Assembly (NCBI RefSeq): GCF_009650215.1 | Contig: NZ_CP045851.1 | Location: 372,001 to 436,000, forward strand | DNA: 64,000 nt | Direction of reading: 5' to 3' | Origin: Actinomarinicola tropica | GTDB lineage: Bacteria > Actinomycetota > Acidimicrobiia > Acidimicrobiales > SKKL01 | Shown here: one piece after another, positions 15,600 to 26,552 of the stretch | Position numbering within the stretch: position 1 is the first letter of the stretch | Layout of the letters: each line of letters starts with the position of its first letter | The notes under the pieces: generated by a model | Databases searched by the model: none | What the model saw: the letters and a program-made list of their open reading frames with translations, nothing else | What the model was told of the DNA's origin: nothing | Position numbers and translations under genes: made by a program

Positions 15600-17090
15600 G
15601 TGACCGACCAGACCGGCTGGCGTCCGCTCGAGAAGCCGCGTGCCCGGCGCGAGGCCCGCGGGTCGTTCACCCTGTCGCCCTTCGCCCGGCTGGCCCGCAC
15701 CCACGCCTGCCTCGTCTCGGGCGACACCCTCGTCGCCCTGGCCCTCGCCGGGTCGCTCTTCTTCTCTATCGACCCGAGCGCGGCCCGCTGGCGCGTCGGC
15801 CTCTACCTGCTGCTGACGATGGCCCCGTTCGCGGTGGTGGCGCCGCTGATCGGGCCGGCGCTCGACCGCGTCGCCGGCGGTCGGCGGATGATGGTCATCG
15901 GCTCCGGCGCGCTGCGCTGCGTGCTCGCGCTCGTGATGGCCCGCCACCTCGACTCGCTGCTGCTGTTCCCCGAGGCCTTCACGATGCTGGTGCTCGGCAA
16001 GGGCTACCACGTCGCCAAGAGCTCGCTCGTGCCCGGCACCGTGCGCACCGACGAGGAGCTGGTCGAGGCCAACTCGAAGCTGTCGCTCCTGTCGGGCATC
16101 TCCGGCGCCGTCATCGTCGTCCCCGGCGGCCTGGCGATGCTGCTCGGCGGCGCGCCCGCGGTGTGCGTGCTCGCCGCGATCGTGTTCGGCGCCGGTGCGG
16201 TGATGGGGCTCCGGATGAAGGCGGAGGCGGTCAGCACCGAGCCGACCGAGGTCGAGCGCTCGGAGCTGCGCGGCGGGGGGATCCGCCTCGCGGCGTCGGC
16301 GATGGGCCTCCTGCGGGGCATCGTCGGGTTCCTCACCTTCCTCATCGCCTTCACCCTGCGGGGCACCGTCGAGCAGCCCTACGTCGAGGAGTTCGGCTCC
16401 CAGGTGGGCGCGGCGACCCGCGAGGCGATCGGGATGGCGTCGACGACGGTGTCCACCGGTGCGCCGACCTGGCACTTCGGGGTGGCCGCGGCGATGGCCG
16501 GCATCGGCGGTCCGGTCGGGGCCCTCGTGACGCCACGCCTGCGCCGGACGGTGAAGGAGGAGCAGATCCTCGTCGGGTCGATCCTGCTGCTCGTGGCGGT
16601 CGGTGTGGCGGCGGCGATCCTCGGCGGGCTGGTGGGCGCGGCCCTCATCGCCCTGACCGTGAGCTTCTCGGCGGGTGCCGGCAAGCTGGCCTTCGACTCG
16701 ATCGTCCAGCGCGACGCGCCCGACGCCGACCGCGGCCGCTCGTTCGCCCGGTTCGAGACCCGCTTCCAGCTCATCTGGGTGGTCGGTGCGGCGCTGCCCG
16801 TGGTCGTCGCCATGCCCGGCCGGATCGGCTACCTGCTCATCGCCGGCACGGCGGCGTTCGCCGCGGTCTCCTACGTGCTCGGGTACCGGTTCCTCGAGGC
16901 CCACGGTCGGCTGCGCCCCCGCCGGACGCCCGATGTCACCGGCAAGCTGAAGGAGGAGGCGTCGCGCCGGGCCCGTCGGGTGCGGCGCTCCGCGACGCGC
17001 CGCCTGCGTCGCGAGGGCGGCATCGTGCCCGGGACCGTGCCCGAGGAGCAGCCGCCGCCGTCGGGGGACGGGTCAGACGTCGTCCGGTAG
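15600..17090 (+). CDS. MFS transporter of unknown substrate
   Basis: A 496-residue major-facilitator-like membrane protein. About twelve hydrophobic segments are visible, with a DRVAGGRRMMVIGSGALRC loop between helices resembling the MFS A-motif. The C-terminal 60 residues are strongly basic and then proline-rich. The start GTG 15600 follows a GGGGGTGAG stretch. Its last 18 bases overlap the convergent zincin_2 gene. No neighbouring enzyme suggests a substrate. Confidence 0.8.
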   Translation: MTDQTGWRPLEKPRARREARGSFTLSPFARLARTHACLVSGDTLVALALAGSLFFSIDPSAARWRVGLYLLLTMAPFAVVAPLIGPALDRVAGGRRMMVIGSGALRCVLALVMARHLDSLLLFPEAFTMLVLGKGYHVAKSSLVPGTVRTDEELVEANSKLSLLSGISGAVIVVPGGLAMLLGGAPAVCVLAAIVFGAGAVMGLRMKAEAVSTEPTEVERSELRGGGIRLAASAMGLLRGIVGFLTFLIAFTLRGTVEQPYVEEFGSQVGAATREAIGMASTTVSTGAPTWHFGVAAAMAGIGGPVGALVTPRLRRTVKEEQILVGSILLLVAVGVAAAILGGLVGAALIALTVSFSAGAGKLAFDSIVQRDAPDADRGRSFARFETRFQLIWVVGAALPVVVAMPGRIGYLLIAGTAAFAAVSYVLGYRFLEAHGRLRPRRTPDVTGKLKEEASRRARRVRRSATRRLRREGGIVPGTVPEEQPPPSGDGSDVVR

Positions 17091-18290
17091 GTCGATGCGG
17101 GCCAGCCAGAGCCCGGGGGCGACGACCTCGTTCGGGGTCGGGAGGTTGGCCGGTGCCGCCCACAGGCGGTCGAGGCCCTCGGTGCCGGCACGCTCGACGA
17201 CGCCCTCGACGAAGGTCGTGCCCCGGTCGTAGAGGTCCTGGGTGAGGTCGAGCCCGAGGATCTGGCCGGCGAAGCGGTCGGCCGCGGCGGCCTCCACCCG
17301 TCGCCGGCGCATGGCCTCGGTGATCTGCCCGTAGCGGCCCATCAGCCGCTCGCCGACGGTGTCCATCACCCAGTCGACGTAGCCGACGACGACGGCGACG
17401 AGCGCCTCGAGCCGGGGCAGCAGCTCGGCCTGGGCCGGGGAGCGGATGGCGCCGAGGACGACCTCGGGGTCGCCGAACATCGACTGCACCGAGGCGAGCC
17501 CCTGCACGTCGGTGGGGTCGAGGTTGCCGAGGCGCTCCTCGAGCACCCCGGTGTCGGGCTGGAAGTTGGCGGCGAAGCCGGAGAGCATCTCGCGGAGCGC
17601 GTCACGCACGTGAGGGACGCCAAGGACGGCGTGGTGGGTGATCTCGTGGAGGCAGACCCACAGGCGCAGCTCGTCGCGGTCGAGGCTCCACTCCTGGCCG
17701 AACTCGTCGAGGTTGCGGAGCACGACGAGGATCTCGTCGGTGCCCGGGCGGGGCACCGGCAGGTCGTACTGGCCGAACGAGCGGGTGGCGAGGTGCCCGA
17801 GCATCGAGCCGGCGGTCATGCCGAGCATCATCGGCGCCAGCATCTGCATCATCCCGCCGAGCCACTGGTCGACGGCGGCCTCGGGGTCGGCGTCGGGGTC
17901 GACGGTGGGCACCGCGGGCGCGTCGTCGCCGGGGGCCGGGCCGAGGGAGCTCGCGATCGACTCGACGAGCGGCTTGTAGACGTCGAGCGACGACGCGAGC
18001 CACTGCGTGCGGGTGACCGGCACGACCTTCACCTGGCCGGAGGCGGAGGTGGACAGCCCGGTCGTGGAACCGACGTGGAGGTCGGCGACGCGTGCCAGCT
18101 GCTCGAGCTGGAGCCGGTCGACGGGGTCGACGTTCGGCTCGGACTCGCCGCCGGTGGCGATCGACGCCGCCAGCTGCCGGGCCGCGTCCCAGCTGACCGG
18201 GCCCTGCTGGGCGAGCATCTTGGCCAGGTCGGCGAAGAAGGGCAGCCCGCCGAAGGGATCGCCCGCACCGAATGGACCGAAACCGCTCAT
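17073..18290 (-). CDS. Zinc-dependent metalloprotease, zincin_2 family
   Basis: A 405-residue actinobacterial protein of the zincin_2 family (formerly a DUF with putative hydrolase activity). The zinc motif HEITHH is at residues 215-220, after LWVCL. A Gly/Phe-rich N-terminus (SGFGPFGAGDPFGG) precedes the helical body. A TACCAT hexamer lies 6 bases before the ATG and no ribosome site is present, so it is probably leaderless. Only 17 bases separate its start from the divergent epimerase gene, and its 3' end overlaps the MFS gene on the other strand. The substrate is unknown. Confidence 0.85.
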   Translation of the reverse strand: MSGFGPFGAGDPFGGLPFFADLAKMLAQQGPVSWDAARQLAASIATGGESEPNVDPVDRLQLEQLARVADLHVGSTTGLSTSASGQVKVVPVTRTQWLASSLDVYKPLVESIASSLGPAPGDDAPAVPTVDPDADPEAAVDQWLGGMMQMLAPMMLGMTAGSMLGHLATRSFGQYDLPVPRPGTDEILVVLRNLDEFGQEWSLDRDELRLWVCLHEITHHAVLGVPHVRDALREMLSGFAANFQPDTGVLEERLGNLDPTDVQGLASVQSMFGDPEVVLGAIRSPAQAELLPRLEALVAVVVGYVDWVMDTVGERLMGRYGQITEAMRRRRVEAAAADRFAGQILGLDLTQDLYDRGTTFVEGVVERAGTEGLDRLWAAPANLPTPNEVVAPGLWLARIDLPDDV

Positions 18291-18296
18291 GGGGGC

Positions 18297-18302
18297 ATGG
18301 TA
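18297..18302 (-). promoter_or_regulatory. -10 hexamer (TACCAT) of the zincin_2 gene
   Basis: On the minus strand TACCAT is 6 bases before ATG 18290. It lies inside the 17-base gap shared with the divergent gene, so any -35 element must fall within the neighbouring coding sequence. Confidence 0.5.
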
Positions 18303-18307
18303 AGCCC

Positions 18308-19351
18308 ATGAAGGCCGTCGTCCTCACCGGGTCCGCGGGCGCGCTCGGCCAGCGCGTGCTCGGGCGGCTCGCGGCGCACCCCGACGTCGAGGACGTCGTC
18401 GGTCTCGACGTCGTGCCCGACCAGGGTCCCTCGACGATCGGTGTGGCGACGCGGCAGGTCGACCTCCTCCACGACGACCTCGGCGCCGACCTCGAGGGCC
18501 GCGACACGCTCGTGCACCTGGCGTCGGTGTTCGCGCCGGAGCGGCGCGGCAACGAGCCGTCGATCGACGTCGAGCTCACCCGTCGGGTCCTCGACGCGGC
18601 CCGGCGCGCCGGCACCCGCCACGTGGTGCTCATCTCGAGCGCCACGGTCTACGGCGCGTGGCCCGACAACCCGGTGCCGCTCACCGAGGAGTCGCCGCTG
18701 CGACCGAACGACGGCTTCACCTACGCCGTCGACAAGCTCCGCATCGAGGAGCTCGCCGCCGAGCTGCGCACCTCGTCCCCGGGGACGTCGGTCGCCGTTC
18801 TGCGCCCCACGGTCGCGCTCGCCGAGGAGGAGCGCAGCTGGGTGAGCGAGGCGCTCGCGTCGGCGGCGTCGGTGCACGCGGGGGACACCGACCCCCCGTC
18901 GCAGTTCCTCCACTTCGACGACCTGGCCGACGCGGTGGTGCTGGCCGCGGACCGGGGCCTCGACGGCGCGTACAACGTGGCGCCCGACGGGTGGATCCCG
19001 CCCGACCGCATGCGGGCCTTCGCGACCCTGCCCCAGCCGCGGGTCCCGGTGTGGGTGGCCGACCAGGTGGCCCGGTGGCGGTGGCGCCTCGGCCTCACCG
19101 CGACGCCGCCGGAGATCCTCCCGTGGACGATCCACCCGTGGGTGGTCGCCAACGACAGGCTGCGGGCCGAGGGGTGGACGCCGGCGCACTCCAACGAGGA
19201 GGCCTACGTCATGTGCACCGAGCCCGGCCCGCTCGACACGTTGAGCCCGAAGCGCCGCCAGGAGATCGCGCTCGCCGTCGCGGGCGGTGCGCTGGTCGCG
19301 GCGGGGGCCGGCGTGGCCGCCGTGGTGCGGCGCCAGATGGGGAGCCGCTGA
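18308..19351 (+). CDS. NAD-dependent epimerase/dehydratase family protein
   Basis: A 347-residue extended SDR. The dinucleotide-binding TGSAGALGQRVL is at the N-terminus (about residues 7-18), followed by LVHLASVF, ISSATVYG and the catalytic Tyr-Lys pair in FTYAVDKLRIEE. The C-terminus departs from sugar epimerases: it has VARWRWRLGLTATPPE and ends with a hydrophobic helix (ALAVAGGALVAAGAGVAAVV) and a basic tail, suggesting membrane anchoring. The start ATG 18308 has no clear ribosome site. Substrate unknown. Confidence 0.8.
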   Translation: MKAVVLTGSAGALGQRVLGRLAAHPDVEDVVGLDVVPDQGPSTIGVATRQVDLLHDDLGADLEGRDTLVHLASVFAPERRGNEPSIDVELTRRVLDAARRAGTRHVVLISSATVYGAWPDNPVPLTEESPLRPNDGFTYAVDKLRIEELAAELRTSSPGTSVAVLRPTVALAEEERSWVSEALASAASVHAGDTDPPSQFLHFDDLADAVVLAADRGLDGAYNVAPDGWIPPDRMRAFATLPQPRVPVWVADQVARWRWRLGLTATPPEILPWTIHPWVVANDRLRAEGWTPAHSNEEAYVMCTEPGPLDTLSPKRRQEIALAVAGGALVAAGAGVAAVVRRQMGSR

Positions 19352-19358
19352 GCCCGGC

Positions 19359-20540
19359 TCAGCTGCGCTCGCCGAGGGTGGCGGTCGCGGTGTGCTCCGC
19401 GCCGTCGCGCAGGAAGGTGAGGCTGATCGGGTCGCCGGGTTCGGCGGCCCGGATGAGCGCGGCGAGCGTGCCCATCGACGGCAGCGGCTCGCCGTCGGCG
19501 TGGAGCAGGACGTCCCCGGCGCGGAGCCCGGCCGTGTCGGCGGGGCTGTGCGGCACGACGGCGGAGACCAGCGCGCCCTCGGTGGTGCGACGGCCCTCGA
19601 CGCCGAGCCACGCGTGGCGGGCGTGCCCGAGCTCGATGATGTCGTCGGCCACCTGGCGGACCTCGTCGATGGGGGTGGCCCAGCCGAACGACGCCTCCTC
19701 GTCGGCCTTGACGGCGACCCCGACCACCGCGCCCGAGTCGACGACGAGCGGTCCGCCGGCGACCTCGCCGGGCACCGGCGCGTCGAAGCGGATGAGCCCG
19801 TAGAGCACGGTGCCGGCGCCGTTCTCGGCTCGCTGCTGGAGGGCGCTGATCGTGCCGGACGAGACCGAGGGCCCGCCGTCCTCGTGCGTGCCGATGGCCA
19901 TGGCCCACTGGCCGACCTCGAGGTCGGCGGGGGTGCCGTGGTCGACGACCGCGAGGTCGGTGGCGTCGACGCGCAGCACCGCGAGGGCGCTCACCGGATC
20001 GGAGCCGACCACCTCGCCGGGCAGGTTGCGGCCGTCGGCCAGCGTGACGAGGACCTCCGACGCCCCCTCGAGGGGGAGGGCGTCGGTGACGAGGTAGCCG
20101 TCGGCCCGGACGACGACGGCCGACGCGTCGACGGTGCCGCCCTCGGTGGTGATCGTCAGGTGCGCGACCCCGGGCAGGACGGCCTCGACCGCCTCGGCCG
20201 GACCGTTCGGCGGGACGGTGGTGGCGACCGGAACGAGCGAGGAGGGCGCGGCGGACGGCGGGGTCTCGACGATGCGCTCGACGACCCGCTCGCCCATCCC
20301 GGTGGCGAGGACGGCGAGCAGCGCCGCCGACGCGCCGACGAGGCTCGAGGCGACGAGGGCGCTCCAGGCGAGGCGCCGCCGCGGCGGGGCGGGGGCGAAG
20401 TCGACCGTGTCGGGGATGGAGCGGGCGCCGACGGGGGGCACGCTCCGCATCTCCGACGGGTGGCGCCACAGGCGGTCGTCGGGGTGCAGGGGATCGCCGA
20501 ACGGCGACGGGTCGTCGTCGGGGAGGTCGTCGTCCTGCAC
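19359..20540 (-). CDS. HtrA/DegP-like PDZ protein lacking the catalytic triad
   Basis: A 393-residue membrane-anchored HtrA homologue. It has a cytoplasmic N-terminus, a membrane helix at about 58-80, a trypsin-like domain at about 115-300 and a PDZ domain at 305-390 (HAWLGVEG, SPADTAGLRAGDVLL). All three catalytic positions are changed: the histidine site reads TDALPL (L155), the aspartate site DPVSALAVL (A185), and the serine site GEVAGGPL (A261 in place of the GNSGGPL serine). It should therefore be a non-proteolytic binding or scaffold protein. The GTG start is leaderless after TAGTCT. Confidence 0.82.
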   Translation of the reverse strand: MQDDDLPDDDPSPFGDPLHPDDRLWRHPSEMRSVPPVGARSIPDTVDFAPAPPRRRLAWSALVASSLVGASAALLAVLATGMGERVVERIVETPPSAAPSSLVPVATTVPPNGPAEAVEAVLPGVAHLTITTEGGTVDASAVVVRADGYLVTDALPLEGASEVLVTLADGRNLPGEVVGSDPVSALAVLRVDATDLAVVDHGTPADLEVGQWAMAIGTHEDGGPSVSSGTISALQQRAENGAGTVLYGLIRFDAPVPGEVAGGPLVVDSGAVVGVAVKADEEASFGWATPIDEVRQVADDIIELGHARHAWLGVEGRRTTEGALVSAVVPHSPADTAGLRAGDVLLHADGEPLPSMGTLAALIRAAEPGDPISLTFLRDGAEHTATATLGERS

Positions 20541-20641: not shown

Positions 20642-21124
20642 GTGCTCACGCTGGATGACGCCGACACCTGGGTCGCAGTGACCGACGAACCTCTCCCGGT
20701 CGACGCCGCCGCCCGCTGGGCGGTGCGCCCCGACTGCGGTGCCGTCGTGTCGTTCTCGGGCACGGCGCGCGACCACGCCGAGGGTCGTCCGGGGGTCTCC
20801 CTCCTCGAGTACGAGGCCTACACCGAGCAGGTCGTGCCCCGGCTGGAGGCCATCGTCGCCGAGGCCCGACGTCGCTGGCCGGACCTCCGGCGCATGGCGC
20901 TGATCCACCGCACCGGCCCGGTCGAGGTCGGCGAGTCCGCGGTGGTCGTGGTCGCCTCCTCGCCCCACCGCGACGTCGCGTTCGACGCCGCCCGGTTCGG
21001 CATCGACACCCTCAAGGCCACGGTGCCGATCTGGAAGCGCGAGCGCTGGGACGGCGGCGAGAGCTGGGGCCTCGAGCCCCAGCACATCCAGGAGGTCGCC
21101 GGACCGGTGGAGGCCGCCCCGTGA
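20642..21124 (+). CDS. moaE: Molybdopterin synthase catalytic subunit MoaE
   Basis: A 160-residue MoaE, the large subunit that adds dithiolene sulfur to precursor Z using thiocarboxylated MoaD. Conserved features are GAVVSFSGTARDH, the IHRTG segment with H89-R90, HR at 109-110, and the catalytic KATVPIWKRE with K125 and K132. The start is GTG 20642. No other molybdopterin genes are nearby. The stop overlaps the next small membrane gene (GTGA). Confidence 0.94.
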   Translation: MLTLDDADTWVAVTDEPLPVDAAARWAVRPDCGAVVSFSGTARDHAEGRPGVSLLEYEAYTEQVVPRLEAIVAEARRRWPDLRRMALIHRTGPVEVGESAVVVVASSPHRDVAFDAARFGIDTLKATVPIWKRERWDGGESWGLEPQHIQEVAGPVEAAP

Positions 21125-21390: not shown

Positions 21391-22401
21391 CTGGCACGCG
21401 ACCTGGCCATCGACCTCGGGACCGCGAACACGCTGGTCTACGCGCGCGGGGAGGGCATCGTCATGAACGAGCCCACCGTGATCGCGCTCAACAACCAGAC
21501 CGGTGACGTCCTGGCGATGGGCCACGAGGCCTGGCAGATGATCGGCCGGACGCCGTCGAACATCGTCGCCGTCCGCCCGCTGCGCCAGGGGGCGATCACC
21601 GACTTCGACATCACGCAGCGGATGATCCGCCTCGTCCTCCAGCGGGTGGGCGTGTCCCGGTTCAACCGGCCCCGCGTGGTCATCTGCGTGCCGTCGGCCA
21701 TCACCGCGGTCGAGCGCCGGGCCGTCACCGAGGCCGCCCGCCGAGCGGGAGCGGCCGACGCCCAGCTCATCGAGCAGCCGATGGCGGCCGCGATCGGCGC
21801 GGGCCTGCCGATCAACGAGGCGATCGGCAACATGGTCGTCGACATCGGCGGCGGCACGTCCGAGACGGCCCTGATCTCGCTCGGCGGCATCGTCGCCATC
21901 GAGGCGGTGCGCGTCGGCGGCTTCGACATCGACGGCGCCATCCAGACCTACATCCGCCGCGAGTACGGCATCGCCATCGGCGAGCAGACCGCGGAGCAGA
22001 TCAAGGTCACGATCGGCTCCGCCTATCCGGTGAACGAGGACCTCAACGCCGAGGTGCGCGGCCGTGACCTCGTCAGCGGTCTGCCGAAGACGGTGCTGCT
22101 CACGCCGGCGGAGGTGCGTGAGGCCATCGAGGAGCCGGTGAGCGCCATCGTCGACTCGGTCATCACCTGCCTCGGCGCCGCGCCCCCGGAGCTGGCCCAG
22201 GACCTCATCGGCCAGGGCATCCACCTCGTCGGCGGTGGCGGCATGCTCGCCGGCCTCGACGTGCGCCTGGCGGCCGAGACCGAGGTCGACGTCCACCTGG
22301 TCGAGGCCCCGCTCGAGGCCGTGGTGCTCGGCGCCGGCCGGTGCATCGAGTCCTACGAGGCGCTCAAGGCGATGTTCATGGGGTCCCGCCCGACCCGCTG
22401 A
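21391..22401 (+). CDS. mreB: Rod-shape actin homologue MreB, apparent CTG start
   Basis: A 336-residue bacterial actin. The phosphate-1 loop is DLGTANT near residue 8, phosphate-2 is DIGGGTSE, and the adenosine motif is HLVGGGGMLAGL. It guides lateral wall synthesis. The first ATG/GTG/TTG in frame is ATG 21463, which would remove the essential DLGTANT loop. Upstream the frame is open for only three codons before TAG 21379-21381, and none is a normal start. CTG 21391 encodes the expected first residue of (M)ARDLAIDLGTANT and has AGGGGA five bases ahead, so CTG initiation is the simplest reading. mreC, mreD and rodA are absent from the window. Confidence 0.88.
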   Translation: MARDLAIDLGTANTLVYARGEGIVMNEPTVIALNNQTGDVLAMGHEAWQMIGRTPSNIVAVRPLRQGAITDFDITQRMIRLVLQRVGVSRFNRPRVVICVPSAITAVERRAVTEAARRAGAADAQLIEQPMAAAIGAGLPINEAIGNMVVDIGGGTSETALISLGGIVAIEAVRVGGFDIDGAIQTYIRREYGIAIGEQTAEQIKVTIGSAYPVNEDLNAEVRGRDLVSGLPKTVLLTPAEVREAIEEPVSAIVDSVITCLGAAPPELAQDLIGQGIHLVGGGGMLAGLDVRLAAETEVDVHLVEAPLEAVVLGAGRCIESYEALKAMFMGSRPTR

Positions 22402-25370: not shown

Positions 25371-26552
25371 ATGCTACCTCCCGAACCGACCGGCTCCCCG
25401 AGCCTCACCACGTCGTCGGCCGCGTCGGCGCCTCCCCCGCAGCCGCCGGTCGTGCACCCCGCGCCGGGGTCTCGGCGTCGGCGCCGGTGGGCGTGGGCGC
25501 TCTCGGTCCTGGCGTTCGTGCTCGTGGCCTCGGGCATCGCCGTCGCGGTGGTGCAGATCCCCTACTACTCCTTCTCGCCCGGCTCGCTGCGCCCCACCAG
25601 CGACCTGGTGCGCATCGACGGCCCACGGATCTACGACCCCGACGGCGACGTGCTGCTGACCACGGTCTCGATCTCGAGCCGACGGCTCACGATCTTCGAG
25701 GCGTTCCTCGGTTGGCTCGACCCGACGGTCACCGTCGTGCCCGAGGAGGAGGTCCTCGGACCGCAGGGCCACGACCGCGAGGCCACCCGGCAGTTCAACC
25801 TCCAGCTGATGGACACCTCCAAGGAGGTCGCCACGTACGTCGCGCTCGACCGGCTCGGCTACGAGGTGTCGCTCACCGGCACCGGCGCCCAGGTGATCGA
25901 GGTCGTGCCGGGGTCGGCCGCGGACGGGGTCGTCGAGCCGGGCGACACGATCGTCGCCGTCGACGGCAGCCCCGTGGCGCTGGCGAGCGACCTCGGTTCG
26001 GCGATCGACGAGATGTCGCCCGGGGACGAGATCGTGCTGACCGTCGAGCCGCTCGGCGAGGAGGGCACGGAGGAGCGCCCGGTCGAGCTCGGTGCCCGGG
26101 AGGACGATCCGGACGCCGCGCTCCTCGGCGTGACGATGCAGACCCGCGACGGTGCGTTCGTCTTCCCGTTCGACGTCGAGTTCGCCACCGGCCAGGTGGG
26201 CGGGCCGTCGGCCGGGCTCAGCTTCACCCTCGTCCTGCTCGACATGTTGACGCCGGGCGAGCTCACCGGCGGTGAGGTGATCGCCGCCACGGGCACGATC
26301 GACGCCGATGGCGTCGTGGGCCCGATCGGCGGCATCGAGCAGAAGGCCGCAGCCGCCCGCCGCGACGGGATCGACCTGTTCCTCGTGCCCGCGGCGACGG
26401 CGCCGAACGAGCTCGAGGCCGCCCGGCGACAGGCCGGGGACGAGGTCGAGATCGTGCTCGTCGAGGACCTCGACGACGCCCTCGAGGTGCTCGAGGCGCG
26501 GGGCGGCGACCCCCTCCCGGAGCCCACGGTGGAGGCGGCCGAGGCGGCCTGA
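25371..26552 (+). CDS. PDZ-domain Lon-like (S16) membrane protease, YlbL type
   Basis: A 393-residue membrane-anchored serine protease. After a proline-rich N-terminus, a membrane helix lies at about 44-62. A PDZ domain (GAQVIEVVPGSAADGVVEPG onward) follows and then a Lon proteolytic domain with the Ser-Lys dyad: S280 in GGPSAGLSF and K325 in IGGIEQKAAAA. This layout matches YlbL/SdrC-type proteins that cleave membrane-associated substrates. A 16-base palindrome lies just after its stop. Confidence 0.9.
   Translation: MLPPEPTGSPSLTTSSAASAPPPQPPVVHPAPGSRRRRRWAWALSVLAFVLVASGIAVAVVQIPYYSFSPGSLRPTSDLVRIDGPRIYDPDGDVLLTTVSISSRRLTIFEAFLGWLDPTVTVVPEEEVLGPQGHDREATRQFNLQLMDTSKEVATYVALDRLGYEVSLTGTGAQVIEVVPGSAADGVVEPGDTIVAVDGSPVALASDLGSAIDEMSPGDEIVLTVEPLGEEGTEERPVELGAREDDPDAALLGVTMQTRDGAFVFPFDVEFATGQVGGPSAGLSFTLVLLDMLTPGELTGGEVIAATGTIDADGVVGPIGGIEQKAAAARRDGIDLFLVPAATAPNELEAARRQAGDEVEIVLVEDLDDALEVLEARGGDPLPEPTVEAAEAA

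Follow-up and report, generated by a model that had tools for sequence, protein, structure and literature searches.

An HtrA-like pseudoprotease at a conserved locus in Acidimicrobiia, with a constant N-terminal motif and repeated loss of the catalytic triad

What keeps a gene for an HtrA-like protease in place when all 3 residues of its catalytic triad have been replaced? The question is raised by one gene in a 64,000-nucleotide stretch of the genome of Actinomarinicola tropica (the window). Its product runs from a short, acidic N-terminus through one transmembrane (TM) helix into a trypsin-like domain, with PDZ at the C-terminal side. The gene, its parts and its neighbours, in window coordinates, are:

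19359..20540, minus strand: HtrA-like pseudoprotease gene, 393 aa, GTG start (ORF check, Pfam, alignment)
20451..20480, minus strand: cytosolic motif DDRLWRHPSE, residues 21-30 (88-sequence alignment and synteny-anchored genes)
20304..20366, minus strand: single TM helix, residues 59-79 (AF2 helix 59-79)
19716..20126, minus strand: trypsin-like domain, residues 139-275 (Pfam PF13365)
19377..19607, minus strand: PDZ domain, residues 312-388 (Pfam PF13180)
20076..20078, minus strand: L155 in place of the catalytic His (pairwise and multiple alignments)
19986..19988, minus strand: A185 in place of the catalytic Asp (pairwise and multiple alignments)
19758..19760, minus strand: A261 in place of the catalytic Ser (pairwise and multiple alignments)
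20642..21124, plus strand: MoaE, divergent neighbour and synteny anchor
21463..22401, plus strand: MreB/Mbl, synteny anchor
18272..19351, plus strand: SDR/epimerase, convergent neighbour
17073..18290, minus strand: Zincin_2 putative metallopeptidase

The fold is intact. Both Trypsin_2 (E 1.4e-17) and PDZ_2 (E 1.9e-14) score above the Pfam gathering thresholds, the AlphaFold2 model has a mean pLDDT of 85.9, with most of the protease and PDZ regions above 90, and the top Foldseek matches are DegP, DegQ, MucD and PepD. Pairwise alignment to solved structures puts L155, A185 and A261 opposite the His, Asp and Ser of DegP-like and HhoA chains, and multiple alignments of 31 and of 141 sequences give the same placement, ruling out a triad elsewhere in the protein. 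In addition, E259, two residues ahead of A261, occupies the position of the oxyanion-hole Gly. A sequence-only reading of this DNA had proposed an intact fold, these 3 substitutions, normal GC3 bias and the absence of a frameshift, and all of this was borne out: the frame is open and GC3 is 0.977, compared to 0.932-0.977 in 6 neighbouring genes. The open frame, the alignments, GC3 and the dN/dS values given below rule out a chance or frame artefact. Since all 3 sites have changed in an otherwise intact fold, and 98 other orthologues at the same locus are also broken, the loss goes beyond chance. Judged by its sequence, the window protein is a pseudoprotease.

The protein has the trypsin-like domain followed by PDZ that defines HtrA (S1C) proteases, without the His-Asp-Ser triad. 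Fold, PDZ and alignment are common to it and DegP, DegQ, HhoA and PepD, from which it differs by the missing triad and by its N-terminal cytosolic motif. It scores 170.6 bits against the NCBIfam Do family model TIGR02037 (curated cut-off 416.2), a cut-off that 2 intact orthologues (L009 and L020) also fail to reach. With mycobacterial-type HtrA (NF050055; 98.4 bits, cut-off 800) it has in common one TM helix, HtrA and PDZ. Two of 21 mycobacterial-type loci (L318 and L319) have D-P-W-R-D-P about 40 residues ahead of the TM helix, which partly resembles R-L-W-R-H-P but, unlike the motif of the window family, has no HPSE; the resemblance may be due to chance, and we treat it as a lead only. We found no mention of an N-terminal tail in the excerpts of a mycobacterial HtrA paper (PMC12735335). 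Elsewhere in the window, the ORF at 25371-26552 (plus strand) contains a PDZ stretch (L003, a weak match) and may encode a PDZ plus Lon-type (S16) protease.

The window gene is the fixed-locus orthologue of a gene spread across one order of Acidimicrobiia, in which 197 of the 198 genomes searched have HtrA-like matches; named database records found with the alignment are metagenome-assembled genomes labelled Acidimicrobiia, Acidimicrobiales, Candidatus Microthrix and similar. Where flanks reach, the gene order is MreB/Mbl, MoaE, the pseudoprotease gene on the opposite strand, SDR (absent in some), Zincin_2, MFS and a response regulator. The order MreB-MoaE-gene-SDR-Zincin_2 is common to intact and broken orthologues, and the window gene has both this locus and the motif before a single TM helix. 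Among 146 distinct orthologues the triad is intact in 46, not intact in 99 and unjudged in 1, which, given that the first 101 were picked by similarity and motif, is a count in the collected set and not a frequency in nature. Those first 101 proteins, all matching [LVIM]W[RK]HP[STA]E, comprise 43 with H/D/S and 58 without, and at least 2 triad residues are missing in 54 of the 58 (all 3 in 32, as counted in the state table). The oxyanion-hole column at 259 follows the triad, being Gly in a fraction of 0.98 of intact copies and 0.16 of broken ones. By comparison, 37 of 38 motif-less HtrAs fetched alongside have an intact triad and the other is truncated (40 were first classed as motif-less, 39 with H/D/S and 1 truncated, before L157 and L162 were found to carry the variant W-M-H-P-S-E).

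The replacement residues differ from lineage to lineage. The 4 genomes of the window's family read L/A/A, H/R/F, Q/D/S and R/D/S, and in another genus (g25) one genome (G168) is intact, one (G111) reads E/D/S and two (G023 and G193) read R/D/G. The H/R/F copy (L005, genome G122) belongs to the window's own genus and keeps His at site 155 with Asp changed to R and Ser to F; this His could be a relict or a chance return. Related copies L105, L100, L092, L097, L113 and L249 read D/D/D, a possible acidic cluster in the former active site.

To how many losses does this correspond? On the gene tree, the fewest irreversible triad losses are 7; with forks below 80 collapsed the figure is 6, and with forks below 95 collapsed it is 3, so that strict collapsing allows as few as 3. 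Trees built from the adjacent genes, themselves free of the trait, give at least 7: the minimum is 12 for 106 rows (8 and 7 after collapsing) and 18 for the extended tree of 158 rows (14 and 9). Unordered minimum changes are 5, 9 and 10 for the gene, neighbour-gene and extended trees. All trees are quick searches, and those of the neighbour genes imply about 7-18 independent triad losses. HtrA pseudoproteases as such are known, and excerpts of PMC4794232 state that those of magnetotactic bacteria evolved independently several times. MamO and inactive MamE copies resemble the window protein as HtrA/Trypsin_2 proteins with a degenerate triad, in MamO also with a non-glycine at the oxyanion-hole position (same excerpts); the window protein, however, scores 48.2 bits against the NCBIfam MamO model, well below its cut-off of 800. 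Whereas the inactive MamE copies described there arose after duplication, in magnetosome islands, the loss here recurs in a single orthologue that holds a fixed locus and conserves a cytosolic motif. Its extent also differs from that of inactive serine protease homologues in general, of which an excerpted survey counts 42 of 966 in 91 prokaryotic genomes (PMC2605481), compared to 99 among the 145 copies of this one orthologue that were collected and could be judged. The recurrence of loss at one locus and the motif both look new: in the titles and abstract openings of open-licence PMC papers on inactive HtrA and pseudoproteases, Acidimicrobiia HtrA and independent pseudoenzyme losses, we found no description of the gene or the motif.

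The most constant part of the protein lies ahead of the TM helix. The family motif is (D/E)(D/E)R-x-W-x-H-P-(S/A/T)-E, and D22, R23, W25, R26, H27, P28 and E30 are invariant in an 88-sequence alignment. By the positive-inside rule, the N-terminus of the window protein is probably inside the cell; over the 146 orthologues, Lys plus Arg average 3.1 before and 1.7 after the helix (more before in 107, equal in 20, fewer in 19). The motif has 79 DNA spellings in the 146 genes, so the constraint acts on the peptide, and a DNA element is ruled out. A genome-wide tag was also rejected: in the window genome, the strict pattern matches the gene and one W-R-H-P-W-E site ending another ORF, and with a looser pattern in 11 genomes the other matches come near the numbers for reversed controls and do not sit in the complete motif context ahead of a TM helix. 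Among 296 genomes of the phylum, a single match fell outside the class (L215), in no HtrA gene.

The distribution of constraint bears on what the protein is kept for. In a comparison set chosen by part of the motif (W25, H27, P28 and neighbours are in the regular expression), mean column entropy from the 43 intact to the 58 broken copies rises from 1.30 to 2.28 in the protease domain and from 1.79 to 2.06 in PDZ, and falls from 0.78 to 0.60 in the N-terminal motif; D22 and R23, which the expression does not require, are at 100% in both groups. NG86 dN/dS stays under 1 for every one of the 13 broken pairs, which range over 0.11-0.55 with a median of 0.31; the 14 intact pairs span 0.05-0.45, with a median of 0.265. 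At such GC the method underestimates dS for distant pairs. For the window copy against a same-genus copy dN/dS is 0.55 (95% 0.44-0.71, codon bootstrap): selection on it is relaxed, not neutral, and the gene is still under purifying selection. Intact relatives and relaxed selection had been named beforehand as evidence against a retained function, and this point went half against it, since 46 of the 146 are intact and protease-domain constraint is relaxed in broken copies. As copies were extracted as open frames, their freedom from frameshifts is partly by construction.

To avoid selection by motif, we anchored the search on MoaE in 60 of the 175 genomes with a MoaE match, chosen mainly for having no full orthologue fetched. 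In 43 of them the gene adjoins MoaE in divergent orientation, and all 43 have W-x-H-P-(S/A/T)-E ahead of a hydrophobic helix. The triad is intact in 1 (L225), broken or deleted in 41 and cut by a contig end in 1 (L228), a broken share raised by the choice of genomes. Three genes (L219, L287 and L289) keep motif and TM helix with no Pfam domain, and 4 (L227, L291, L292 and L295) have a trypsin stretch with no Pfam PDZ. Because these 7 genes show no PDZ in Pfam, and because in most broken pairs PDZ evolves at least as fast as the protease domain, a role for PDZ is not general. L256 (4179-4937, genome G061) has motif, TM helix and PDZ without a protease domain; since this form occurs in one genome, with none like it among matches in 12 other relatives, the deletion may be an assembly error. 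In 11 of the 60 genomes the flanks remain but the gene is missing, MoaE abutting SDR or Zincin_2, and in 6 the context is lost or a contig ends. On the extended neighbour-gene tree the absences amount to 10 events (10 and 9 at the same two collapsing levels); 10 of the 11 rows lie beside broken lineages and 1 (L254) beside intact ones.

These absences, the relaxed protease domain and the value of 0.55 for the window copy are what would be expected if the protease were no longer needed and the protein drifted under weak selection toward deletion, with the motif the last part to go. We regard such slow decay as unlikely, given that motif and helix persist in every one of the 43 retained genes, that dN/dS is 0.11-0.16 in several broken pairs and that broken clades span whole families.

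The protein might instead join or activate an intact HtrA paralogue encoded elsewhere, by analogy with MamO, which excerpts of PMC4794232 describe as required for MamE proteolysis without need of its own triad. Intact motif-less paralogues are present in 4 of 4 genomes of the window's family (L002, L035, L037, L034, L038 and L036). However, the paralogue in the window genome (L002), with its His, Asp and Ser, lies at a distant place in that genome, shares only 33% identity with the window protein in the aligned region and has no motif. Moreover, HtrA trimers form through the protease domain, the part that L256 lacks, and such a partnership seems to us quite improbable.

New chemistry at the old active site, such as metal binding by acidic replacements, would fit the Asp at the His column in 21 of 58 broken copies and at the Ser column in 15, and the one group reading D/D/D, but we give it very little credence, as replacements vary by lineage and the window copy has no polar residue among its L/A/A. 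That the protein still cuts through other residues is barely credible with the triad and the oxyanion-hole Gly all replaced; we found nothing here in its favour, the precedent being USP53/54, which show that annotated pseudoproteases can have activity (abstract of PMC12037411).

Repeated loss of the triad with the inner tail kept suggests a lasting role other than cutting, and we think it probable that the window protein is a non-proteolytic, membrane-anchored HtrA pseudoprotease that serves as an adaptor or sensor across the membrane. Its ancestor would have been an active HtrA protease at the same locus that gained, about 23 residues ahead of the TM helix, the motif (D/E)(D/E)R-x-W-R-H-P-S-E. 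Once the motif took on a function of its own, the triad would have become dispensable and been lost many times, in the window copy completely. The tail would dock a putative cytoplasmic partner, PDZ and the dead protease fold, where kept, could bind extracytoplasmic peptides, and the whole protein would act as adaptor or sensor and not as an enzyme. The retained non-proteolytic function proposed from the sequence is thus supported by the conserved locus, the open frame and dN/dS, but the periplasmic scaffold or sensor suggested with it fits at most half of the protein, since the most constant part is the cytosolic motif and not the periplasmic module. More tentatively, the motif could be a docking signal for a putative cytoplasmic partner and the real core of the family, with protease and PDZ as dispensable outer modules that are repeatedly inactivated, shortened or removed, and proteolysis secondary.

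The locus provides a natural series within one bacterial order, from active enzyme to dead enzyme, domain-stripped forms and gene loss. This series allows one to ask what an HtrA that does not cut is doing, and the short peptide offers a place to look for its partner.
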